IMG/VR virus record: IMGVR_UViG_3300038701_001196
Location: 1-38,477 of that record
Origin: a virus
Strand: one strand, 5' to 3'
Length of the DNA: 38,477 nt
Numbering within the stretch: position 1 is the first letter of the stretch; each line of letters opens with the position of its first letter. The notes below the pieces were generated by a model. It did no database searches. It saw nothing but the letters and a program-made list of their open reading frames with translations, and was not told where the DNA came from. The position numbers were made by a program, and so were the translations under genes. Shown here piece after piece: positions 1-38,477 of the stretch.

Positions 1-324
1 AGGTCGGACAAAGAGCAGGTAACCCTGGGTGAGATCAAACGATCTGCCCGGCGCCAGCTTGCAGGCATGACAGTATGGCAACAGGATCAAGCGGTCTACT
101 CCGCCATGGCGCTACTGGAGAAGGCTAACTGGGTGGCCAGGGTGGACGATGGGTCGGATGAGCATCGTCATAAAGCACTGTGGTATATAAACCCAGACCT
201 GAAGGTCTTGTTCAAGGAGTACCGGGACAAAGTGATCCGTGCGAAACAGGCTCAGCTGAACGACATTTACAAGGAATCCCGATCAGAAAAACCCAAAGTG
301 TATGGTCATGAGTCACTGGGTTAA
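1..324 (+). CDS. Primase-polymerase/DUF3987 replication protein, C-terminal part (continues from 36185-38477)
   Basis: This is the 3' end of the gene that begins at 36185 and crosses the circular junction. Bases 4-128 are identical to 38351-38475 and the frame is the same on both sides: the residues HHSDKEQVTLGE at the right end continue here through MTVWQQDQAVYSAMALLEKANW. Joined once, the protein is about 828 residues. This part is the charged tail after the DUF3987 ATPase-like domain and ends KVYGHESLG. The ATG at 67 is internal, not a start. The first three bases of the window do not match the other end and look like assembly edge noise. An early promoter for the small genes begins just after the stop. 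Confidence 0.88.
   Translation, partial: RSDKEQVTLGEIKRSARRQLAGMTVWQQDQAVYSAMALLEKANWVARVDDGSDEHRHKALWYINPDLKVLFKEYRDKVIRAKQAQLNDIYKESRSEKPKVYGHESLG
4..128. repeat. Left copy of 125-bp terminal direct repeat
   Basis: Identical base for base to 38351-38475. It lies inside the primase coding sequence and preserves the frame, so it most simply reflects an overlap left by assembling a circular or circularly permuted molecule. A true short terminal repeat at the physical ends, as in T7, cannot be excluded from sequence alone. Confidence 0.9.
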
Positions 325-407: not shown

Positions 408-758
408 ATGGACAACACACCTTGCCGCTTATCGCTGGATTTAGCTGCGCACCAGCGGAAAGTTGACGATGTGATGCGGCTTCCACGCGCACGAGACCAA
501 GAGGCCGTAGACCGCAAAATTAAAGCCCTGCTGCACGATCCAGATTTTATCTGGGAGGCCATAGGGCCGGACGGTGTTGTAGGCTCAATGACTCCGGCAC
601 AGCGTAAAGATTATTTAACAACAAGAGATTCGGCCTTCCGCTACAGCGCCACGATGATCGGTCGGGCTGTCTATACAAAGGACTTCGCGGCCCTTGGCCG
701 GATGGTTTACGACCAGATCAGGGGCTACGCCGAATACTGTGCTGAGGACGAATCATGA
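408..758 (+). CDS. Hypothetical protein, 116 aa, first gene of the early small-gene block
   Basis: The ATG at 408 is preferred over the longer frame opening at 333 because GAGAGGA lies 8 bases upstream and the candidate promoter occupies 333-360. The protein (MDNTPCRLSLDLAAHQRK...) looks soluble, mixed in charge and mostly helical, with no recognised domain, signal or membrane segment. Its stop overlaps the next start (ATGA at 755), which indicates translational coupling. Its position just behind the replication protein and a candidate early promoter suggests an early accessory role, but nothing specific can be assigned. Confidence 0.72.
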   Translation: MDNTPCRLSLDLAAHQRKVDDVMRLPRARDQEAVDRKIKALLHDPDFIWEAIGPDGVVGSMTPAQRKDYLTTRDSAFRYSATMIGRAVYTKDFAALGRMVYDQIRGYAEYCAEDES

Positions 759-1009
759 AACCTGAATACATCCTCGCCGCCCTGATCCTGCTCGCCTTCG
801 GCATCGTCGGCGAGATGGATTTCCGCGAGGCCACTGCGGAGAGTTGCCGCATACCACTCGGCCCGGCACGGGCTATCCCGCTGGGCGCTGAGGTCGAGAT
901 TGTCGGCTCCAGCGGGTGCAAGGTGGATGTGCTGCTACGTGATGGCACATTGGTTAAGGGCGCTAATGCGCGGGACTACACCAAACAGCGCACAGCGCGG
1001 GAGGGATAA
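755..1009 (+). CDS. Small exported or membrane-anchored protein, 84 aa
   Basis: Residues 5-18 (YILAALILLAFGIVG) form one hydrophobic segment right after the N-terminus, consistent with a membrane anchor or uncleaved signal. The rest (about 20-84) is a small soluble domain that would lie in the periplasm, with Cys at about 31 and 55. It overlaps the preceding stop by ATGA. The C-terminus QRTAREG is encoded by a 19-bp sequence (987-1005) that is repeated at the end of the next gene. No family is recognised. A role at the host envelope, such as exclusion of other phages, is only a guess from topology. Confidence 0.68.
   Translation: MKPEYILAALILLAFGIVGEMDFREATAESCRIPLGPARAIPLGAEVEIVGSSGCKVDVLLRDGTLVKGANARDYTKQRTAREG
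987..1005 (+). repeat. 19-bp gene-boundary repeat, copy 1
   Basis: AGCGCACAGCGCGGGAGGG is found here and again at 1203-1221, both times in the same frame (encoding RTAREG). It carries the GGGAGGG that acts as ribosome-binding site for the following GTG start at 1010. Confidence 0.85.
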
Positions 1010-1234
1010 GTGAATAATCTACCAAAATGGAAACAAAAAATAATTTGCTGGCTGGCAAAAGATGAGCCGGTGATTATCAATTTCACACTACTGCCTGGTA
1101 CGGATAAAAAGGCCATTATTTATATTCCGCCTTATGACGATAGGGAAACGGCACAGTTTTACAGTGAAGTGGCGCGGCTAGTCCCCACAAGAAACATTAT
1201 CGAGCGCACAGCGCGGGAGGGGTTGTTGTTGTGA
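1010..1234 (+). CDS. Hypothetical protein, 74 aa
   Basis: The GTG start directly follows the previous stop codon, with GGGAGGG a few bases upstream. The sequence (MNNLPKWKQKIICWLAKDEP...) has an amphipathic N-terminal helix and a beta-rich middle, with no recognised domain. It ends ERTAREGLLL, encoded by the second copy of the 19-bp boundary repeat. The stop overlaps the next start (GTGA at 1231). Base composition is more AT-rich than in its neighbours, consistent with a separately acquired cassette. Confidence 0.65.
   Translation: MNNLPKWKQKIICWLAKDEPVIINFTLLPGTDKKAIIYIPPYDDRETAQFYSEVARLVPTRNIIERTAREGLLL
1203..1221 (+). repeat. 19-bp gene-boundary repeat, copy 2
   Basis: Exact second copy of 987-1005, in the same frame at the 3' end of the next gene and just before that gene's successor (GTG at 1231). 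Confidence 0.85.
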
Positions 1235-1566
1235 GTGAACTACGAAAACAAATTATAGACGCAATACTATCAACACAGGGACAAAGCGAGGGCGTGACGG
1301 CAGATGCGATTATGTATCTACTACAGCAGTCACAATGGCACAGCGCCGCCGAGCGGTTGCCTGATGAGCAATGCGCTTGGTGGTGGTGGAACGGCGACCC
1401 TGACGGCCAGCCAATCCTAGTGTCGATTTTATACAGCGGCACGTCCTGTAAATATTTCGCTGCTATTGGTCAGTATGGCTGGAATGTGGCGCAGTACGTT
1501 GAAGATATGGGCGGCTATTGGATGAAAGCAGTGATACCACAACCACCGGTGGAGAGCGGACTATGA
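1231..1566 (+). CDS. DUF551-like small phage protein, 111 aa
   Basis: The C-terminal half follows the DUF551 pattern (PF04448): a W-x-x-x-ERLP opening (QWHSAAERLPDEQ, about 36-48), a central beta region, and a final GGYWMKAVIPQPP that matches the family's THWMPLP-PP ending. DUF551 proteins are common in phage and prophage early regions and have no known function. The N-terminal 35 residues (ELRKQIIDAILSTQG...) form a helix resembling the small N-terminal domain often seen on such proteins. GTG start; the stop overlaps the next ATG (ATGA at 1563). The QPPVESGL ending belongs to the boundary-repeat family described at 1540. Confidence 0.7.
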   Translation: MSELRKQIIDAILSTQGQSEGVTADAIMYLLQQSQWHSAAERLPDEQCAWWWWNGDPDGQPILVSILYSGTSCKYFAAIGQYGWNVAQYVEDMGGYWMKAVIPQPPVESGL

Positions 1567-1567
1567 A
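1540..1567 (+). repeat. CCACCAGCGGAG-type gene-boundary repeat, copy 1 (divergent)
   Basis: CAACCACCGGTGGAGAGCGG followed by a short spacer and ATGAAT. It encodes the end of the DUF551-like protein (QPPVES) and supplies the GGAG for the start at 1563. It is the most divergent of five related copies. Confidence 0.7.
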
Positions 1568-1799
1568 TAAAAAATTAATGGTGGCTACAAGCCCGTTAAC
1601 TAATACGATTTTTGCAGGCACACTGCTAAAAGATGGCCGGACATGGGCGGCGGGGAAGCAAGATGTAACGCTGCCAGCTTTGATCGCCGTTGCACAGCAC
1701 TGCGTCAATTTTGGGAAACCCGTAGAAATCAGCAGAACGGACGGGTCGATTGAATACCGCATAACGGTAGAGCGTAACCCCCCAGCGGAGTCGGAGTGA
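1563..1799 (+). CDS. DUF7446-like small protein, 78 aa
   Basis: MNKKLMVATSPLTNTIFAG followed by a DVT-x-x-AL-x-AV-x-QH segment and a final beta strand resembles the small phage family DUF7446 (SPLT-x-x-I-x-AG near the N-terminus, DVT in the middle). Function is unknown. The ATG at 1563 overlaps the previous stop and has GGAG upstream within the boundary repeat. The C-terminal NPPAESE is encoded by the next copy of the repeat and is probably a by-product of the cassette junction rather than part of the fold. Confidence 0.68.
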   Translation: MNKKLMVATSPLTNTIFAGTLLKDGRTWAAGKQDVTLPALIAVAQHCVNFGKPVEISRTDGSIEYRITVERNPPAESE

Positions 1800-1801
1800 T
1801 G
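1777..1801 (+). repeat. CCACCAGCGGAG-type gene-boundary repeat, copy 2
   Basis: CCCCAGCGGAGTCGGAGTGATG. The first GGAG (1787-1790) lies 8 bases before the ATG at 1799, the preferred start of the next gene. It encodes PPAESE at the end of the upstream protein. Confidence 0.85.
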
Positions 1802-2053
1802 AATTTACCATCAGCAACAGCAAAAACTACAAGACTTGAGCAGCTGACACTTGACCAGGTATGGCGAGAGGCAGAAACGCTGGGCGTGGTTGAGATTGAT
1901 CACGCTATCGGCGACAGCTCATATAGGGCTGAGATTATGTTCACCAGGAAGTCAGGAACAAGGATAATAGCAATAGGCTTTGACCAAGATGTTTTATTTG
2001 CACTGGGCAAAGCGATAAACGAAGCTCGCGAGCTTGGTGCAGGCGACTCCTAA
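1799..2053 (+). CDS. Hypothetical protein, 84 aa
   Basis: MNLPSATAKTTRLEQLTLDQVWREAETLGVVEIDH... looks like a compact alpha/beta protein: an N-terminal helix, two strands (EIDHAIGDSSYRAEIMFTR, TRIIAIGFD) and a C-terminal helix (ALGKAINEARELG). No family is recognised. The ATG at 1799 is chosen over the GTG at 1796 because it sits 8 bases from the boundary-repeat GGAG; it overlaps the upstream stop as TGATG. Unlike its neighbours this protein does not end in the PPAE peptide. The following repeat copy lies in the untranslated gap instead. Confidence 0.65.
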   Translation: MNLPSATAKTTRLEQLTLDQVWREAETLGVVEIDHAIGDSSYRAEIMFTRKSGTRIIAIGFDQDVLFALGKAINEARELGAGDS

Positions 2054-2070
2054 AAGTTTGCCAGCCACGA

Positions 2071-2097
2071 CAACCACCAGCGGAGCCGGAATAAATG
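2071..2097 (+). repeat. CCACCAGCGGAG-type gene-boundary repeat, copy 3 (untranslated)
   Basis: CAACCACCAGCGGAGCCGGA then ATAAATG. This copy lies after the stop at 2053, in a 41-base gap, so it acts only as leader and ribosome-binding site for the start at 2095. Confidence 0.8.
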
Positions 2098-2244
2098 ACA
2101 GACCTTGAGAAGCTGCAAAAAGGAATCATACGAAGGGTGTCAGCAAGAAGAAAGCGCAAGCTCTGGCAGAACCGTCGGGTTATTTGCTGGTGGTCATTAG
2201 AGCTTGGTAGTTATGTTTGGCAACCACCAGCGGAGACGGAGTGA
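2095..2244 (+). CDS. Very small basic protein, 49 aa
   Basis: This frame reads MTDLEKLQKGIIRRVSARRK, then a basic and Trp-rich stretch, and ends in QPPAETE. It is supported by a ribosome-binding site in the upstream boundary repeat, by a stop that overlaps the next start (TGATG-type junction at 2242-2246), and by the shared PPAE-type C-terminal peptide. Residues 13-23 are strongly basic (RRVSARRKRKLW), followed by NRRVICWWSLEL, which could bind nucleic acid or lie against a membrane. No family is recognised. It fills an otherwise unexplained gap between two real genes. Confidence 0.62.
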   Translation: MTDLEKLQKGIIRRVSARRKRKLWQNRRVICWWSLELGSYVWQPPAETE

Positions 2245-2246
2245 TG
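2221..2246 (+). repeat. CCACCAGCGGAG-type gene-boundary repeat, copy 4
   Basis: CAACCACCAGCGGAGACGGA then GTGATG. It encodes QPPAETE at the end of the 49-residue protein and the ribosome-binding site of the Cys-rich protein at 2244. Confidence 0.9.
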
Positions 2247-2468
2247 TTCAGCGACGAAGATGACAGCCAGTACGACAATGACGCGCCCCAGCTTTGTGAG
2301 TTTTGCGGCAGCGCAGAATGCCGTTGCGAAAATGATAATTGCTGCCAGTTTGTGCATGACGGTTTTATCTACTGCTCTGCTATCGGTAGCGAGGACTGTG
2401 ATTGGTGCCCACATCATGACGAGATAGGCACCAGGATCGACAACCAACCACCAGCGGAGGCGGAGTGA
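2244..2468 (+). CDS. Cys-rich, probably zinc-binding mini-protein, 74 aa
   Basis: Nearly the whole protein is a Cys/His array: LCEFCGSAECRCENDNCC (about residues 17-34), then YC, then EDCDWCPHHDE (about 50-60). The CxxC, CxC and CxxCPHH spacing can provide two metal sites, so a zinc-ribbon or treble-clef-like fold is likely. The acidic N-terminus (FSDEDDSQYDND) and small size would suit a protein-binding adaptor such as a host-takeover factor, but that is inference. The ATG at 2244 has the boundary-repeat GGAG upstream. The C-terminus DNQPPAEAE is encoded by the next repeat copy. Confidence 0.7.
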   Translation: MFSDEDDSQYDNDAPQLCEFCGSAECRCENDNCCQFVHDGFIYCSAIGSEDCDWCPHHDEIGTRIDNQPPAEAE

Positions 2469-2470
2469 TG
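2445..2470 (+). repeat. CCACCAGCGGAG-type gene-boundary repeat, copy 5
   Basis: CAACCACCAGCGGAGGCGGA then GTGATG. It differs from copy 4 at one position over 26 bases. It encodes QPPAEAE and precedes the start at 2468. Confidence 0.9.
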
Positions 2471-2686
2471 ACAATACCTAAATACTGCTTAAACAATATG
2501 GGCCTTGAAACCGCCCGTCAATTTAAAAGTTTAAAACGCAAAGAGGTTAGGCGCGCACTAAGAGCGGTTGATGATCTCAGGACAGGCTGTTCATTTTTAC
2601 CTTCTGGTGATACTCGTGTTCAACGGATACAAAAAGAGCTAGATCAGTTAAAACAAGAGCTTGCTGTCAAAAATTGGGGCAACTAA
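2468..2686 (+). CDS. Hypothetical helical protein, 72 aa
   Basis: MTIPKYCLNNMGLETARQFKSLKRKEVRRALRAVDDLRTG... is basic, with two predicted long helices (about 14-38 and 52-70, the latter RVQRIQKELDQLKQELAVK with a heptad pattern), so it may form a coiled-coil dimer. No family is recognised. The ATG at 2468 is chosen over the GTG at 2465 for its spacing from the repeat's GGAG, and overlaps the upstream stop. It is the last gene in the repeat-linked series. Confidence 0.65.
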   Translation: MTIPKYCLNNMGLETARQFKSLKRKEVRRALRAVDDLRTGCSFLPSGDTRVQRIQKELDQLKQELAVKNWGN

Positions 2687-3187: not shown

Positions 3188-3442
3188 TCACTTGTCCACA
3201 GAAACGGATTTCTGAATCGCGCTTTGTCGCCACAGGTCCGCCAAGTCTGGCGCCATGGCGTCCAGGGTCTGCAGTAGATCAAGCAATCGATCGACGGGTC
3301 CTGGTGCTGGCCGGTCGCCGCGCTCATAGTTCCGATATGTCTGGATATTCAGGCCCAGCATATCGGCCATCTGAGTACGGGACAGGTTCAAGGTCTGACG
3401 ATAGACGGCTAGGTTTGTCAATGGTTCGCTGTTCTTGGTCAT
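3188..3442 (-). CDS. XRE-family HTH transcriptional regulator, 84 aa
   Basis: Residues 11-66 are a standard XRE/Cro-type HTH: LAVYRQTLNLSRTQMADMLGLNIQTYRNYERGDRPAPGPVDRLLDLL, with the second and third helices at about 22-40 and a YRNYERG recognition segment. TAGGA lies 9 bases before the ATG. It has no effector or protease-like domain, so it is closer to Cro-sized regulators than to CI repressors. It lies downstream of the minus-strand small-gene block but is separated from it by a strong terminator, so its level may depend on readthrough. A plus-strand promoter at 2981 could produce antisense RNA against it. Confidence 0.85.
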   Translation of the reverse strand: MTKNSEPLTNLAVYRQTLNLSRTQMADMLGLNIQTYRNYERGDRPAPGPVDRLLDLLQTLDAMAPDLADLWRQSAIQKSVSVDK

Positions 3443-4139: not shown

Positions 4140-4499
4140 TTATTTGATTTTCACCCAATCTTTTTTGGGTATCCGATAATAGTTGCCGCCCACTCTGTAC
4201 CGGTGCGGGATTCCCTCACTACCAAGGTGCATATCGCGCGGCTTGTGTCCGAGCTGGCGGAAAAGATACTCAAGCGCTGAGGATTTTTTACAGTAGCCAT
4301 AACCGTCTGTTTTATAAAAATGACCAGCGCTATCACTAGATACGTCGGGGCAATTATCAATGTCAATAGCAAAACCGTATACTTGATAACCATAGTTTCC
4401 CTGTCTTTTCGACCGCCACAATCGGACATTGCCCGTCGGTGTTTCGCAAACAACAAAGGGTGTTGACTCACAGCGTTGGTCTATCGTGTTCCAATTCAT
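4140..4499 (-). CDS. Hypothetical protein, 119 aa
   Basis: The ATG at 4499 is chosen over the GTG at 4508 because AGGTG lies 8 bases before it. The protein (MNWNTIDQRCESTPFVVCETPTG...) is rich in Tyr, Gly and aromatic residues and ends in basic segments (HRYRVGGNYYRIPKKDWVKIK), suggesting a beta-rich fold, possibly nucleic-acid binding. No domain is recognised. Its leader (4500-4550) is nearly identical to that of the next gene upstream (4836-4886). AT-rich compared with the structural genes. Confidence 0.68.
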   Translation of the reverse strand: MNWNTIDQRCESTPFVVCETPTGNVRLWRSKRQGNYGYQVYGFAIDIDNCPDVSSDSAGHFYKTDGYGYCKKSSALEYLFRQLGHKPRDMHLGSEGIPHRYRVGGNYYRIPKKDWVKIK

Positions 4500-4550
4500 A
4501 ATAATCACCTGTTTAGAGAGTAGTTAGTAGTTAAACGATAAAAATGATCA
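4497..4550 (-). repeat. 54-bp leader duplication, copy 1
   Basis: Matches 4833-4886 at 49 of 54 positions. It includes the ATG and ribosome-binding site (AGGTG) of the 119-residue gene plus upstream bases. In copy 2 the far end encodes LIIFIV-stop of a membrane protein; here the same bases follow the stop of the 95-residue gene and are untranslated. Confidence 0.85.
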
Positions 4551-4835
4551 ACTAATTAAGAACAATTGCTCAAACTGTTCAGCGTACTCACCAGGCAAAC
4601 CTAATTGTTCGATAATAAATTCTAAATCATTGTCTGGCATACCATCGTCATAACCGGGGCAATATTTATATTGTAAATCGGTCAATTGTCCATCTTTACA
4701 AAGCGAATCAGTGTAATTATTCCACGACTCATTAATTGCCGGTTCATCATCTTCGCTGTATTGCTCAATGACTAGCGGTTTTATTTCCGATTCCCAGCTG
4801 TCAAATGCTTCCTGTAATGTCATTAAATTGCTCAT
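4548..4835 (-). CDS. Hypothetical acidic protein, 95 aa
   Basis: The ATG at 4835 is used rather than the GTG at 4844 because AGGTG lies 8 bases before it. The protein (MSNLMTLQEAFDSWESEIKP...) is strongly acidic (many Glu/Asp, e.g. QYSEDDEPAINESW and DDGMPDNDLEFIIEQLG) with Trp and Tyr interspersed. No membrane segment or domain is recognised. Such composition is common among phage proteins that imitate nucleic acid or bind host enzymes, which is only suggestive. The gene sits between the two copies of the leader duplication, as if inserted or duplicated together with it. Confidence 0.68.
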   Translation of the reverse strand: MSNLMTLQEAFDSWESEIKPLVIEQYSEDDEPAINESWNNYTDSLCKDGQLTDLQYKYCPGYDDGMPDNDLEFIIEQLGLPGEYAEQFEQLFLIS

Positions 4836-4886
4836 AATATTCACCTATTTAGGGAGTAGTTAATAATTAAACGATAAAAATGATCA
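4833..4886 (-). repeat. 54-bp leader duplication, copy 2
   Basis: Partner of 4497-4550 (49 of 54 identical). Here it spans the 3' end of the 50-residue membrane protein gene and the ribosome-binding site and start of the 95-residue gene, so it is a gene-boundary sequence. Confidence 0.85.
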
Positions 4887-5019
4887 GCGCAACGATGGCG
4901 CATAGTGTCACTACTGCGCCGGCAATGTGCAGCCGGTCCAGCCGTTGCTGTTCGCGCTCAATGATCTTATCCAGTTCAGCAATGCGCCGCTGTCTATCTG
5001 GATTAGTTAAAAATTCCAC
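4867..5019 (-). CDS. Small C-tail-anchored membrane protein, 50 aa
   Basis: Reads from a GTG start: MEFLTNPDRQRRIAELDKII, then a charged helix to about residue 30, then a single hydrophobic segment at about 32-50 (HIAGAVVTLCAIVALIIFIV) that ends at the stop codon. This gives a cytoplasmic amphipathic helix with a C-terminal membrane anchor. It overlaps the 60-residue gene upstream by 13 bases and fills an otherwise empty 130-base gap. The start is the least certain part, with only a weak GGGGG ribosome-binding site. An envelope-associated function such as superinfection control fits the topology but is not shown. Confidence 0.6.
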   Translation of the reverse strand: MEFLTNPDRQRRIAELDKIIEREQQRLDRLHIAGAVVTLCAIVALIIFIV

Positions 5020-5788: not shown

Positions 5789-5813
5789 GTTATGGGATGG
5801 CGATAGTGTACCA
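5789..5813 (-). repeat. Left arm of perfect 25-bp inverted repeat
   Basis: Perfectly complementary in reverse to 5937-5961, 123 bases apart. Read outward, each arm begins TGGTACACTATCGCCATCCC. The arms point away from each other, toward the minus-strand block and the late block respectively. Confidence 0.92.
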
Positions 5814-5832
5814 ATGTGGTACAGTGCGACAA
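5805..5832 (-). promoter_or_regulatory. Candidate leftward promoter/operator, distal
   Basis: On the minus strand TTGTCG (5832-5827), 16 bases, then TACACT (5810-5805). The -10 lies inside the inverted-repeat arm. A palindrome AGTGTACCA-ATG-TGGTACAGT (5805-5825, one mismatch) covers the core promoter, an operator-like arrangement. Confidence 0.45.
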
Positions 5833-5917
5833 GATTGACTGAAACAGGGATTTTGAGGGTAAAAATCAGCGTTTTTAGAAAATCGTAAATTCTAGGGGGT
5901 CGCCGGCGAAGGGGAAA

Positions 5918-5945
5918 TTGTGACACCGTGCAACACTGGTACACT
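5918..5945 (+). promoter_or_regulatory. Candidate rightward promoter, mirror of the distal leftward one
   Basis: TTGTGA (5918-5923), 16 bases, then TACACT (5940-5945), with the -10 at the same place in the right inverted-repeat arm as its counterpart in the left arm. It would give a leader of more than 550 bases before the terminase gene. Confidence 0.42.
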
Positions 5946-5975
5946 ATCGCCATCCCATAACATAGTAATGCATTG
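5937..5975 (+). repeat. Right arm of the 25-bp inverted repeat and first copy of a 39-bp direct repeat
   Basis: Bases 5937-5961 form the right arm. Extended to 5975, the sequence also matches 6065-6103 at 32 of 39 positions (TGGTACACT..CGCCATCCCAT.AC..AGTAAT.CA.TG), spaced 128 bases apart. Confidence 0.85.
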
Positions 5976-6022
5976 TGTCTATATTGCATCACGTCCCAGA
6001 TCATCACTGCCTTGTAATACAT

Positions 6023-6037
6023 TGGTACACTTGCGAC
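6023..6037 (+). repeat. Short copy of the TGGTACACT motif
   Basis: TGGTACACTTGCGAC shares the first nine bases with the inverted-repeat arms and twelve with the copy at 6065. A related sequence (TTACACTTGCGC) occurs at the lysis promoter near 25837. Confidence 0.7.
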
Positions 6038-6064
6038 AAACGGCACAATTTGACATTTATCAAG

Positions 6065-6118
6065 TGGTACACTTGCGCCATCCCATGACGCAGTAATTCA
6101 CTGCATCCCAGATCATCA
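6065..6118 (+). repeat. Second copy of the 39-bp direct repeat plus TCCCAGATCATCA repeat
   Basis: TGGTACACTTGCGCCATCCC begins the copy. It runs into TCCCAGATCATCA (6106-6118), which is also present exactly at 5994-6006. The bases CATCCCAGATCA (6105-6116) are inverted at 6145-6156, giving a further 12-bp inverted repeat. Confidence 0.8.
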
Positions 6119-6163: not shown

Positions 6164-6219
6164 CCTGGTGGCCTGGTGACCCGCTGACCTGGTGGCCTGG
6201 TGGCACGGTGACCCGGCGC
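6164..6219 (+). repeat. Tandem octamer array (CCTGGTGG-type), seven units
   Basis: Seven consecutive 8-base units: CCTGGTGG, CCTGGTGA, CCCGCTGA, CCTGGTGG, CCTGGTGG, CACGGTGA, CCCGGCGC. The 8-base period is exact and the last units degenerate. No other array of this kind was seen. Its place between the iteron-like repeats and the terminase gene suggests a protein-binding array. Confidence 0.8.
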
Positions 6220-33519: not shown

Positions 33520-34194
33520 CTAGGACATGAACGGCGGAAGGCCGGGGATAGATGCAGCAGGAACCTGTGCGTCCGCCGGAGATGATGTGGGTTGACCCGT
33601 CGGCTGGGCCTGACTTGCTCCAAACATTCCGGTTACGTCGACCGCGCCCTCTCCGAATGCGGCACCTTCTGCGTGAAACTGAACCGCGATAAGATCGCAT
33701 CGGACACCCCTCCCGTGCTTGTTCTCCTGCAACCAAGGCTTCACTGCGGCATTGACATAGCAACCACCATAGAGCTTGCGAGCTACTGCCTGACAGGCCA
33801 TGGTGTTTGCTGGATCAATGGGGTTGCCTGTAGCGTCAATCATCTGAGGCTGGGTGTCACGGCCTGTTGAGATGTAGACCTTACCTTCGTAACCATCATA
33901 GACTTGGAAGGTTTTCTGGTTTACTTTCTCACTGCCACTGCCGTAACACCGCAGCTTCCGATCCTGCTGAATGATCTGCATGACCTGATTGGCGTGTTCT
34001 TTCCACTTCTCCAGCGCCAGCTCACCATACTTCTTCATGAACTGGACGAACCCCGGATGGTCCTGGTCCATCAGAAACTCGGCATTGTAACTGACCCGCT
34101 CTTTGCCTTCGGGAGATACACGACGTTGAGGTTCAACCAGATTGGGAAAAGACAGTCGAACATTGCTTAAAAAAATTACATTATCATTACTCAT
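33520..34194 (-). CDS. DUF2815 single-stranded DNA-binding protein, 224 aa
   Basis: MSNDNVIFLSNVRLSFPNLVEPQRRVSPEGKERVSYNAEFLMDQDHP is the DUF2815 opening (VRLSFP-L-EP...F-A-FL---D), a family thought to be a phage-type SSB with an OB-like fold. Further conserved parts are DGYEGKVYISTGRDTQPQMID and KLYGGCYVNAAVKPWLQENKHGRGVRCDLIAVQF. The C-terminal tail is Gln/Pro/Ala-rich and ends PGLPPFMS, less acidic than in cellular SSBs. It sits between DUF2800 and the polymerase, the standard module. Confidence 0.9.
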   Translation of the reverse strand: MSNDNVIFLSNVRLSFPNLVEPQRRVSPEGKERVSYNAEFLMDQDHPGFVQFMKKYGELALEKWKEHANQVMQIIQQDRKLRCYGSGSEKVNQKTFQVYDGYEGKVYISTGRDTQPQMIDATGNPIDPANTMACQAVARKLYGGCYVNAAVKPWLQENKHGRGVRCDLIAVQFHAEGAAFGEGAVDVTGMFGASQAQPTGQPTSSPADAQVPAASIPGLPPFMS

Positions 34195-34206: not shown

Positions 34207-35496
34207 TTACATTAACCAAGCAGGAATTTCTTCACCCGTGGCGTCCTGATTCTCCACGTTTTTAAACATCGGTGAGGCATCGAAAACCACGGCTTCGCGG
34301 TCATCCGATTCTGTCACAACGGTCAACTTACCTTTCTTCTTCTCGATATAGTTCTTATCGATTGTGGCAAGTTGTTTCGCGCTGAGTTGTTTCTGTTGAC
34401 CTTTGGTTGACCAGACCAGCTTCTCCACCTGGGCGGGACTGACCAATGTCTGTTCGTACACGCTGCCCTTGGGGATACCAAGCCGTCGAAGTTTTTGCTC
34501 CATTTCTTCATCGGGTAGTTTCCAAGCGCGAGAACCGCGACCAGTGACAACCTTGAGTCCGTCGATAGAATGACCTTTCTTCATTCGCTTGAGTGCTTCT
34601 TCCTCCGCAGCGATCAACAGCTGACGGAGCAGGGGCGCGGCCTCAATAATCTCACGAAGTTTTCCATCGCTCATTTCATTGGGGTCTTTATCGGCGACCT
34701 GTTGGGCCACCTCCAGTGCTTCAAACATGACGCCAATATCCTCCATCGTTTTATTCGCAAGTGCGCTGCAATTACCCTTTGCCCGACAAAACCAACACTG
34801 TTCTTCACCAGGGTTCAATGGGGCATCGGGGTCATCGACAGCATGTTCCACTGCGAGGTGTTTATAAATGTCGCCCAGTAACTCCTTCACCGGCACATCG
34901 ACGCTGCTGACGAGCTCCTGACCACGTAACGCCATTTTGGGCTGAATAATAGTCATCTTGACGGTACTGAACCGAGTAAACACATTGGCCGGTGTTTTAA
35001 ACTCGGCCAGAGCGCCAATGGCGTACCGCTGCAGTTGGTCATTTCCTTCTGCCTTCACCGGGATCATGCCGTCTTTGTAATCAATGACCTCGATGATATC
35101 GTCACCATGGATCTGAATGTCTGCTGTGCCCGCCATGTCTTCCCGATGAACGAAGAACGCCGGATCGACACGGGTTTCGGATAATATCGTAACATCCGGT
35201 CCAATTGACAGTGCCCGATTGGCCACGTAGTCCAATGCTACGTTTACCCGGGTGGCCCGTTCACGATCGACTGTGAATTCGCCCTCGTGATCACTGAGCG
35301 TCTGGTCGACCATGCACAAAGCGTCCCATAGATCATTTTTTATACAATGATCCAACAGCGTGTGGGTATGGGTGCCGTCAATCGCAGAGGGTCCCGATGA
35401 ATCAGGATACTTCTGTTCCTCCCGGTGCGACCCCGGGCACAGCCTGCGACGGAACGCAGAGCTGGGTGACCGGGCCGCATGGACTGGTTGATTCAT
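34207..35496 (-). CDS. DUF2800 Cas4/RecB-like nuclease, 429 aa
   Basis: A PD-(D/E)XK nuclease with a probable iron-sulfur cluster. Cys20 (RRRLCPGSH) and Cys234, Cys237 and Cys243 (EEQCWFCRAKGNCSAL) form the four-cysteine set. The nuclease centre is His43-H (GTHTHTLLD), Glu107, Asp126 (GTADIQI), Asp139-Tyr-Lys141 (VIDYKDGMIPV) and Gln154-Tyr158 (QLQRY). The C-terminal part is an additional helical region. Length fits DUF2800. The start overlaps the stop of the gene upstream (TGATG). With SSB and helicase it probably processes ends for recombination. Confidence 0.88.
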   Translation of the reverse strand: MNQPVHAARSPSSAFRRRLCPGSHREEQKYPDSSGPSAIDGTHTHTLLDHCIKNDLWDALCMVDQTLSDHEGEFTVDRERATRVNVALDYVANRALSIGPDVTILSETRVDPAFFVHREDMAGTADIQIHGDDIIEVIDYKDGMIPVKAEGNDQLQRYAIGALAEFKTPANVFTRFSTVKMTIIQPKMALRGQELVSSVDVPVKELLGDIYKHLAVEHAVDDPDAPLNPGEEQCWFCRAKGNCSALANKTMEDIGVMFEALEVAQQVADKDPNEMSDGKLREIIEAAPLLRQLLIAAEEEALKRMKKGHSIDGLKVVTGRGSRAWKLPDEEMEQKLRRLGIPKGSVYEQTLVSPAQVEKLVWSTKGQQKQLSAKQLATIDKNYIEKKKGKLTVVTESDDREAVVFDASPMFKNVENQDATGEEIPAWLM

Positions 35497-36184: not shown

Positions 36185-38477
36185 ATGAATAAATCGGTAG
36201 AGCAGCACCCCGCATCGGTGGACGCTTACATAAGACACGGATGGTGCTTGGTGCCAATCCCTCGGGGGACAAAGGCTCCCGTTAATGATGGATGGAATCT
36301 GAAAAAGAACACATTGACATCTCAACAACAGCTTCCTGTGGGGTACGGGATAGGATTAGCCCATGCGTATAGCGGCACTATGGCGCTGGACATTGATGAC
36401 TGGGAACAGGCGAAGAAGAAACTGACTGAGTGCGGCATCGACCTTGACGAACTGTATCAGGCACCTGATGCCGTCATCATTGACTCAGGCCGCCCGGGTC
36501 ACGGGAAGTTACTATATGCCATGCCGATGGGGGTGGCCCTCCCGTCGAAAAAGCTCATTGAGACAACCCCGGATGGGGTCAGATACAATTATCTGGATTT
36601 CCGGTGCGCCACCAGCACTGGCCTGACGACTCAGGACGTGCTGCCGCCGTCCATACATCCGATCACTCAATCCCCTTACCGCTGGGCGGGCCTGGGTCAC
36701 TGGTCCAGACTCCCCGTCATCCCCGATAAACTGCTGGCGTTCTGGCATTCGCTGATCAGTCAGGATCAGGTAAAGATCGAGAATGTCAATGAGGCCATGG
36801 ACACTACATGGGAAGAAATACTTGCGATGCTGGAACACGTCCCTGCGGAAGTATCGCGGGAAGAATGGATCGCGATCGGTATGGTGCTGCACTGGGCAGG
36901 TCATCGAACAGACCAAGTTGACTACGCCCTGCACCACTGGGACCAATGGAGCGCACTATCGTCGATTAAGTACCCCGGGTGGAAGGGTATCTTGACACAA
37001 TGGAACAGTTTCCGCACAGACAAGCCCAATTCAGTCAAGCTGGGCACCCTGCGAACAATCGCCAAGCGTTACGGCTGGGAACCTCCCTTGCCTGATGTAT
37101 CCAGTCTGTTCAGTAGCACCAAGATCGCAGACCAGCCGATCAATGTGATCGATGCGCTCAGACCCCCGGCCCCTGACATCGACCTGTCGTTGTTCCCGGG
37201 CATCCTCAGAGAGCGTTCTGAAGAAATCAGTAATCAGGTGGGGTGTGACGTACTGGTTCCATTGTTCGCTGGCCTGGCGGCCATATCAGGCGTCGTGGAT
37301 GCCCGTATGCGACTGGAGCTGGTACCTGGGTTCAAAGTACCTCCAGTCGTTTGGCTGATGACCCTGGGCAATCCTGCTGATAAGAAGTCGCCGGGGTCAC
37401 GCCCAATGATCAGCCCGATCAGGAACATTGAAGCTGAGGATCGTCCGCGATTCCAGAAAGACCTGCTGGTCTGGGAGGGTCAGGAAGCGGCTCACGCATC
37501 GGCGAAAAAAGCATTCTTGGAATTCAGTGCTTCCACGGAATCAATGCTCAGTGGCGACATAGCACCCGAAGTGCCAGAAATGCCACCACAGCCCGTTCCG
37601 TTGAAGGTGACCGTCAGTGACATCACGTCGCAAAAGCTCGTCAGACAGTGCTCAGATCGCCCTCGCGGTCTACTGTGCCACTTGGATGAAATGAATTCGT
37701 GGGTTCGTAAGCTGACGGACAAGACGGGAGGGGAGGATCGGTCGACATGGGTGGTGGCCTACGAGTCACAGCCCTATGAGATGGACCGAGTGGGGGCGGG
37801 TAACATTCACTGCGATAACTTCGCTGTGTCGATATACGGGAATATTCAGCCATCGGTGTTCAGGGAGGCGCTGCATCAATTGGGCACAGACGGCCTGATC
37901 CAACGATTCATTCCGGCTATTCTTCGCCCGAACCAGACCCGATTGGGTGAACCAGCCCCTGAGTTCATGGGTAAAGCTGATCAGTGGGAGCAGACATTGA
38001 GGATCGCCTACGCACTGCCGGCGCAGACGTACCGATTATCCAGCGAAGCATACACCAAGTTCCGCGAGTTTCAGCGATGGTATGAGGATGCCAAGCAGAC
38101 CGAACGGCTGGTGGGCAGCGCTGATCTGTTCATGACCGCCTTCGGTAAACTGGAAGGGACGGTCGGTAGACTAATGCTGCTGTTCCATCTGGTTGACAAT
38201 CCGTTTTCCTCAGAAGTTCATCCCGATGTAGTAGATCGCGTAGTCAGCTTGGTGCGCGGGTACGTGATTCCAGCGTTCCGTTATATGCTCGGTGAGGTCG
38301 GCGGCATGGACACATTCGATGTGTGGATGGGGACCCATGTTATTCACCATTCGGACAAAGAGCAGGTAACCCTGGGTGAGATCAAACGATCTGCCCGGCG
38401 CCAGCTTGCAGGCATGACAGTATGGCAACAGGATCAAGCGGTCTACTCCGCCATGGCGCTACTGGAGAAGGCTAATT
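36185..38477 (+). CDS. Primase-polymerase/DUF3987 replication protein, N-terminal and central parts
   Basis: Continues at 4-324; about 828 residues in total. N-terminal bifunctional primase-polymerase domain (PF09250-type): MALDIDD with Asp69/Asp71, the SGRPGHGKL loop at 101-109, and Asp138 in YLDFRCATSTGLTTQDVLPPSIHP. Residues about 203-300 resemble PriCT-2 (TTWEEILAMLEHVP...SREEWIAIGMVLHW...WDQWS). From about 325 a DUF3987 ATPase-like domain follows, with Walker B LLCHLDE at 496-502, but the P-loop is GNPADKKS (395-402), lacking the expected Gly before Lys. GAGG lies 7 bases before the ATG. It likely synthesises primers and loads or acts at the fork; helicase activity is doubtful given the P-loop. 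Confidence 0.9.
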   Translation, partial: MNKSVEQHPASVDAYIRHGWCLVPIPRGTKAPVNDGWNLKKNTLTSQQQLPVGYGIGLAHAYSGTMALDIDDWEQAKKKLTECGIDLDELYQAPDAVIIDSGRPGHGKLLYAMPMGVALPSKKLIETTPDGVRYNYLDFRCATSTGLTTQDVLPPSIHPITQSPYRWAGLGHWSRLPVIPDKLLAFWHSLISQDQVKIENVNEAMDTTWEEILAMLEHVPAEVSREEWIAIGMVLHWAGHRTDQVDYALHHWDQWSALSSIKYPGWKGILTQWNSFRTDKPNSVKLGTLRTIAKRYGWEPPLPDVSSLFSSTKIADQPINVIDALRPPAPDIDLSLFPGILRERSEEISNQVGCDVLVPLFAGLAAISGVVDARMRLELVPGFKVPPVVWLMTLGNPADKKSPGSRPMISPIRNIEAEDRPRFQKDLLVWEGQEAAHASAKKAFLEFSASTESMLSGDIAPEVPEMPPQPVPLKVTVSDITSQKLVRQCSDRPRGLLCHLDEMNSWVRKLTDKTGGEDRSTWVVAYESQPYEMDRVGAGNIHCDNFAVSIYGNIQPSVFREALHQLGTDGLIQRFIPAILRPNQTRLGEPAPEFMGKADQWEQTLRIAYALPAQTYRLSSEAYTKFREFQRWYEDAKQTERLVGSADLFMTAFGKLEGTVGRLMLLFHLVDNPFSSEVHPDVVDRVVSLVRGYVIPAFRYMLGEVGGMDTFDVWMGTHVIHHSDKEQVTLGEIKRSARRQLAGMTVWQQDQAVYSAMALLEKAN
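38351..38475. repeat. Right copy of 125-bp terminal direct repeat
   Basis: Identical to 4-128. The two bases after it (38476-38477) read TT against CT at 129-130, so the match ends here. Confidence 0.9.

Follow-up and report, generated by a model that had tools for sequence, protein, structure and literature searches.

We found that five gene junctions between positions 1540 and 2470 of the window (the whole 38,477-base stretch of viral DNA analysed) carry a short repeat, CAACCACCAGCGGAGNCGGA or a variant of it, that closes one small gene and leads into the next. The repeat is probably a copied 3′-end adaptor, supplying a stop codon, a Shine–Dalgarno sequence and the next start, that was left by the shuffling of accessory genes and possibly reused for it (estimated probability of about 0.62). 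In related phages, the corresponding locus varies in gene content and its genes are exchanged at start codons.

The two ends of the virus record overlap by about 125 bases, so the record is probably a complete circularised genome. Its gene content is podovirus-like and includes, among others, a helicase, a primase and a head–tail connector (PF12236) with 36–47% identity to BcepC6B and other phages among the best matches listed. No DNA similarity to the window was found in phage records; for the primase, the nearest named record was phage DSL-LC05 (65%). Through the primase we gathered 80 relatives, with 58–66% identity to the primase of the window. The small genes of the window lie between the primase gene and a Cro/C1-type HTH gene, in the following order:

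36185 to 38476, continuing across the contig ends into 1 to 324, plus strand: primase gene, conserved as the anchor at the near end of the variable locus
755 to 1009, plus strand: small gene, 84 amino acids, weak match to phrog_6168
1010 to 1234, plus strand: small gene, 74 amino acids, no family
1231 to 1566, plus strand: gene A, 111 amino acids, weak resemblance to Tunturiibacter phage gp68, undetected as DUF551
1563 to 1799, plus strand: gene B, 78 amino acids, DUF7446 (PF24233)
1799 to 2053, plus strand: gene C, 84 amino acids, no convincing family
2095 to 2244, plus strand: gene D, 49 amino acids, no family
2244 to 2468, plus strand: gene E, 74 amino acids, cysteine-rich, homologue search negative
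2468 to 2686, plus strand: gene F, 72 amino acids, homologue search negative
3188 to 3442, minus strand: Cro/C1-type HTH gene, conserved in about 50 relatives as the anchor at the far end of the variable locus

Gene B belongs to DUF7446, scoring 72.4 bits against PF24233 (cut-off 24.1). No convincing homologues of A, C, D, E or F were found.

Exact copies of the repeat start at 2071, 2221 and 2445, and a copy with three mismatches starts at 1776. The first copy, at 1540 (CAACCACCGGTGGAG-AGCGGA), is a more diverged member that matches at 13 of 15 positions over the first half. A preliminary description of this DNA had claimed five consensus cassettes; the five junctions are real, but only three of them match the consensus it quoted exactly. 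When the plus strand of the whole window was searched with the core, CAACCACCAGCGGAG, only these five junctions matched at 12 or more of 15 positions, and 100 dinucleotide shuffles yielded zero matches to CAACCACCAGCGGAGNCGGA. The copies directly precede the starts at 1563, 1799, 2095, 2244 and 2468, with GGAG 8–9 nt from each ATG, in agreement with the earlier proposal that the element encodes both the upstream C terminus and the next ribosome-binding site. Also as described earlier, four copies are translated as the end of the upstream protein, and the copy at 2071 is untranslated, lying in a 41-nt gap 3′ of the gene at 1799–2053:

1540 to 1565, plus strand: J1, diverged copy, tail QPPVESGL before the stop, GGAG at 1551–1554, ATGA overlap with the next gene
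1776 to 1801, plus strand: J2, tail NPPAESE before the stop, GGAG at 1787–1790, TGATG overlap
2071 to 2097, plus strand: J3, untranslated by the upstream gene, GGAG at 2082–2085, TAA and then ATG
2221 to 2246, plus strand: J4, tail QPPAETE before the stop, GGAG at 2232–2235, TGATG overlap
2445 to 2470, plus strand: J5, tail QPPAEAE before the stop, GGAG at 2456–2459, TGATG overlap

A second repeat family of 19 bp, AGCGCACAGCGCGGGAGGG, occupies two junctions of the same operon just upstream of J (at 987 and 1203) and encodes the tail RTAREG. Together, J and K place two repeat families at seven consecutive junctions:

987 to 1005, plus strand: K1, tail QRTAREG before the stop, Shine–Dalgarno sequence for the GTG start at 1010
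1203 to 1221, plus strand: K2, tail ERTAREGLLL before the stop, Shine–Dalgarno sequence for the GTG start at 1231

Elsewhere in the window, a 55-bp repeat with 91% identity between its copies (4496–4550 and 4832–4886) lies at the boundaries of small minus-strand genes (4140–4508, 4548–4844 and 4867–5019).

The position of the J copies could also reflect a regulatory site at translation starts, of the kind put forward for start-associated sequences: a phage or host factor would bind it as DNA or RNA and so coordinate the small genes, with copies spreading since the site was needed. All copies lie at a fixed distance from starts within one operon, conservation reaches about 11 bases upstream of GGAG, beyond the needs of a Shine–Dalgarno sequence, and a different start-associated leader, GTAACCCGTAAC, recurs in a nearby operon of the relatives. 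However, the upstream half of the repeat varies in J1 and J2, the operon's other junctions use another repeat or none, and the copies are confined to this one operon. RNA folding at all five junctions also revealed nothing unusual. We consider a regulatory site unlikely, although it is the strongest of the alternatives.

In the relatives, the interval between primase and HTH gene ranges from less than 500 bases to about 3 kb and contains small genes reading opposite to the primase. Homologues of the HTH gene occur in about 50 relatives at variable distances from the primase; the corresponding place in DSL-LC05 is taken by an annotated repressor. Gene orders at this locus vary by one or a few genes: one relative (L034) has the families F7-F8 and another (L038) F7-F6-F8, and F0-F1-F5-F4-F3 in L055 corresponds to F0-F64-F1-F5-F4-F3 in L020. 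When L034 and L038 were aligned at the start codon, the upstream side was alike through the ATG and the downstream side was alike from the ATG on. More generally, where the upstream genes of a junction pair were homologous and the downstream genes differed, homology extended through +3 to +8 in 25 of 27 pairs; in the converse arrangement, with the downstream genes homologous and the upstream ones different, it began at −4 to 0 in 14 of 21 pairs. These pairs share genomes and are not independent events, and the gene calls in the relatives come from a simple script. ATGA overlaps account for 73 of the junctions in relatives, and of 90 junctions that overlap, 80 contain a Shine–Dalgarno-like motif within the coding sequence of the upstream gene. 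What is exchanged in the relatives is a unit bounded by two start codons, whose last codons contain the ribosome-binding site of the gene that follows. How phages add single accessory genes without breaking operons is an old question. For one phage group, this locus answers it in concrete terms that can be counted: start-to-start units, each bearing the ribosome-binding site of the next gene.

Most of these exchanges involve about 4 shared bases, the length of ATGA, with the break at the ATG itself, and therefore do not require long repeats or a homology-based system; so little common sequence at the break would also be consistent with illegitimate joining and subsequent selection. The preliminary description had proposed homology-based exchange of accessory genes. 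The exchange itself holds up: at this hotspot, relatives are distinguished by single small genes, and tails recur on unrelated genes (in L053 and L046). A homology-based system, however, is not needed to explain it. Its interpretation is thus partly supported, and the underlying observation confirmed. Short homology and illegitimate joining become testable against each other in close relatives.

As an adaptor, the repeat would be a unit of 20–26 bp that combines the upstream gene's last codons and stop, GGAG and the overlapping next start. The primase and the Cro/C1-type gene enclose the accessory-gene hotspot that holds it, in which small genes are gained and lost one at a time. A gene landing there would keep its neighbour working only if its own last codons supplied the next ribosome-binding site, so an incoming gene could be joined to an existing 3′ end and inherit its C-terminal peptide. 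Selection for a working next gene would retain junctions with a Shine–Dalgarno sequence, and translation may be coupled across them. The tail may have been copied from an A-like gene, and the J copies may have been reused as homology for later gain or loss. Recombination could proceed by annealing, through a pair of proteins that the phage itself encodes:

33520 to 34194, minus strand: Enc34-type single-strand DNA-binding protein (PF10991), which may act as the annealing protein
34207 to 35496, minus strand: DUF2800 protein (PF10926), which may act as the partner nuclease

In a more elaborate form, the adaptor would be a dedicated joint: the annealing protein of the phage would recombine the copies, and the single genes that they flank would be acquired, deleted or rearranged with reading frame and translational coupling preserved, as in an integron-like array without an integrase. 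Unlike integron gene cassettes, the J junctions lack an attC-type palindrome between single genes; no such local palindrome was found at them among the 25 longest inverted repeats of the window. We regard a dedicated joint as improbable.

Reuse of a gene end was also observed in the relatives, and the window illustrates a possible outcome of such reuse. In L053, CTCAAGGAGAAGAACAC-ATGA follows three genes and gives the tail LKEKNT; apart from that tail, no similarity links one of these genes to the other two. Single copies of this junction are present in L011, L046, L062 and L082. L046 also contains a hybrid junction, CAGGAGAAGA-ACACATGA, at a gene whose homologues in kin have CAGGAGAAGA-TGCA and then the start. 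This gene carries CAGGAGAAGAACAC where kin end in CAGGAGAAGATGCA before the start, and the switch lies inside or just after the Shine–Dalgarno sequence. Junctions of unrelated genes matched at 18 or more of 21 positions in 2.8% of within-genome pairs versus 0.08% of between-genome pairs. All within-genome pairs matching at 16 or more of 21 came from the window and L053, and tail sharing by unrelated genes of one genome is thus rare in kin, which speaks against the adaptor reading.

Local tandem duplication, in which one gene was multiplied and its bodies diverged or were replaced while gene conversion helped to keep the 3′ ends alike, would account for copies that cluster within 1 kb on a single strand and for the near identity of J3 to J5. 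The sequences around the copies argue against it. Only 3–10 of 30 bases are identical on the 5′ side, similarity ends abruptly at the repeat edges, and blastp among the linked proteins found little beyond the C-terminal tails (last 7–10 residues) and no significant similarity outside them, which bears out the earlier statement that these proteins are otherwise unrelated. Furthermore, gene B is a DUF7446 gene with homologues in unrelated phages. Tandem duplication is therefore distinctly implausible.

We also asked what is conserved in the repeat. The three exact copies read CAA CCA CCA GCG GAG NCG GA, in which the synonymous sites are fixed and the variable base N is a nonsynonymous first codon position. 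The fixed synonymous sites, a residue that varies (S, T or A) and the one untranslated copy indicate that DNA or RNA is conserved, and not the peptide. Selection on the shared peptide itself, perhaps as a tag for degradation or localisation, would explain why four proteins end in a similar proline–acidic tail, but it is highly unlikely given this pattern, the untranslated copy and the different ending of the tail of A. The chance of coincidence, with Shine–Dalgarno and codon constraints making junctions look alike, is negligible: GGAG and an overlapping start are expected at coupled genes, but the common 15-mer includes bases outside the Shine–Dalgarno sequence, and the shuffles and the 0.08% of between-genome pairs led us to reject convergence on the Shine–Dalgarno sequence alone.

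Gene B and its homologues show where the tail begins. The closest homologues align only to residue 70–71 of 78, just before the NPPAESE tail, and those whose ends were read continue for 3–4 residues of other sequence before ending. Some more distant homologues align further: PhiXhv-7 over residues 1–78 at 39% identity, and several to residue 74. Gene A, which ends in GGYWMKAVIPQPPVESGL at its stop, weakly resembles (E = 0.7) Tunturiibacter phage proteins that end in GGKWLKIETPEVPK at theirs, which suggests that an A-like gene may naturally end in the PQPP tail. Against this, J1, on the proposed source-type gene, is the most diverged copy. The tail had previously been likened to the PLP-PP ending of DUF551 proteins; membership of that family was unsupported, as the PF04448 profile had no match to gene A or the window at E values up to 10, and DUF551 sequences sought in 185 genomes for a profile–profile test were not found.

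A search for the consensus in other genomes, as had been suggested, found the exact J repeat in none of the viral contigs. The shorter 3′ half, CCAGCGGAGNCGGAGTGATG, occurred in nine stretches of viral and genome contigs, in a single copy each and five of them with the same sequence; none resembles the operon, and we treated them as chance. Among the viral and genome contigs, none was found to combine the J repeat with another set of genes. Because the J repeat was found in no other genome, gain or loss at the repeat is not directly demonstrable.

Start-codon swapping at this locus is a new case of a known way in which phages shuffle accessory genes. The mobile regulatory cassettes of T4-type phages, reportedly described by Arbiol et al. 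in 2010, are said to be repeated gene-boundary elements that are thought to mediate modular shuffling and that carry an early promoter and a stem-loop. The J repeat is likewise a repeated gene-boundary element, but the five junctions have no stem-loop or other unusual fold.

The closest precedent is found in Cluster I mycobacteriophages, where comparison of Island3 gp67 and gp68 with Brujita revealed adjacent, otherwise unrelated genes with a common C-terminal peptide (18 residues, 60 bp), which the authors explained by recombination between the common ends (PMC3029335). As in these phages, genes of the window that are otherwise unrelated have DNA in common at their ends. Island3 and Brujita have two copies, whereas the window has five plus a second family of two, which are shorter and include the next Shine–Dalgarno sequence and start; moreover, a close relative shows the recombinant there, whereas here analogous junctions are seen in kin only. 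As summarised in the same paper, short conserved boundary sequences of lambdoid phages were proposed as homologous recombination sites for mosaicism (PMC3029335). These resemble J as short sequences at module boundaries, but the window copies separate single small genes of the same genome, and exchanges in kin use few common bases.

Closest in position are the start-associated sequences (SAS) of Cluster K mycobacteriophages. These short repeats span the ribosome-binding sites of numerous non-structural genes within one genome, and the upstream stop can lie inside them; their 13-bp consensus, GGGATAGGAGCCC, lies a few bp before starts, is common to Cluster K and occurs in 11–19 copies per genome (PMC3203893). 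The window repeat similarly includes the ribosome-binding site at five starts, but CAACCACCAGCGGAGNCGGA is unrelated in sequence to GGGATAGGAGCCC. The account of SAS consulted mentions no common protein tail, whereas the five window copies lie in one operon and are mostly translated. New relative to these precedents are copies that are shorter and more numerous than in Island3, the inclusion of the Shine–Dalgarno sequence, two families in one operon and exchange points at start codons counted in kin.

Several other repeats were observed. The leader with the core GTAACCCGTAAC precedes several small genes per genome in L007, L010, L032, L038, L048, L049, L052 and others, in the operon beyond the HTH gene; its Shine–Dalgarno half is often alike within a genome (three identical copies in L052) and differs between genomes. 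L079 has three tandem copies of a 51-base sequence beginning GTGAATCGGTTGACCTTTTCAATCCGG near the HTH gene, from about 200 bases past the end of the primase match (12268). In L085 and L086, contigs classed as viral, a DUF7446 gene is flanked by GCCGTATAAC...GTTATACGGC palindromes that resemble integron attC sites. The window itself has several inverted and direct repeats, TGGTACACT..GCGCCATCCCAT, at 5789–6103, which may be operators or an origin, and tandem 8-base units of the CCTGGTGG type at 6164–6219.
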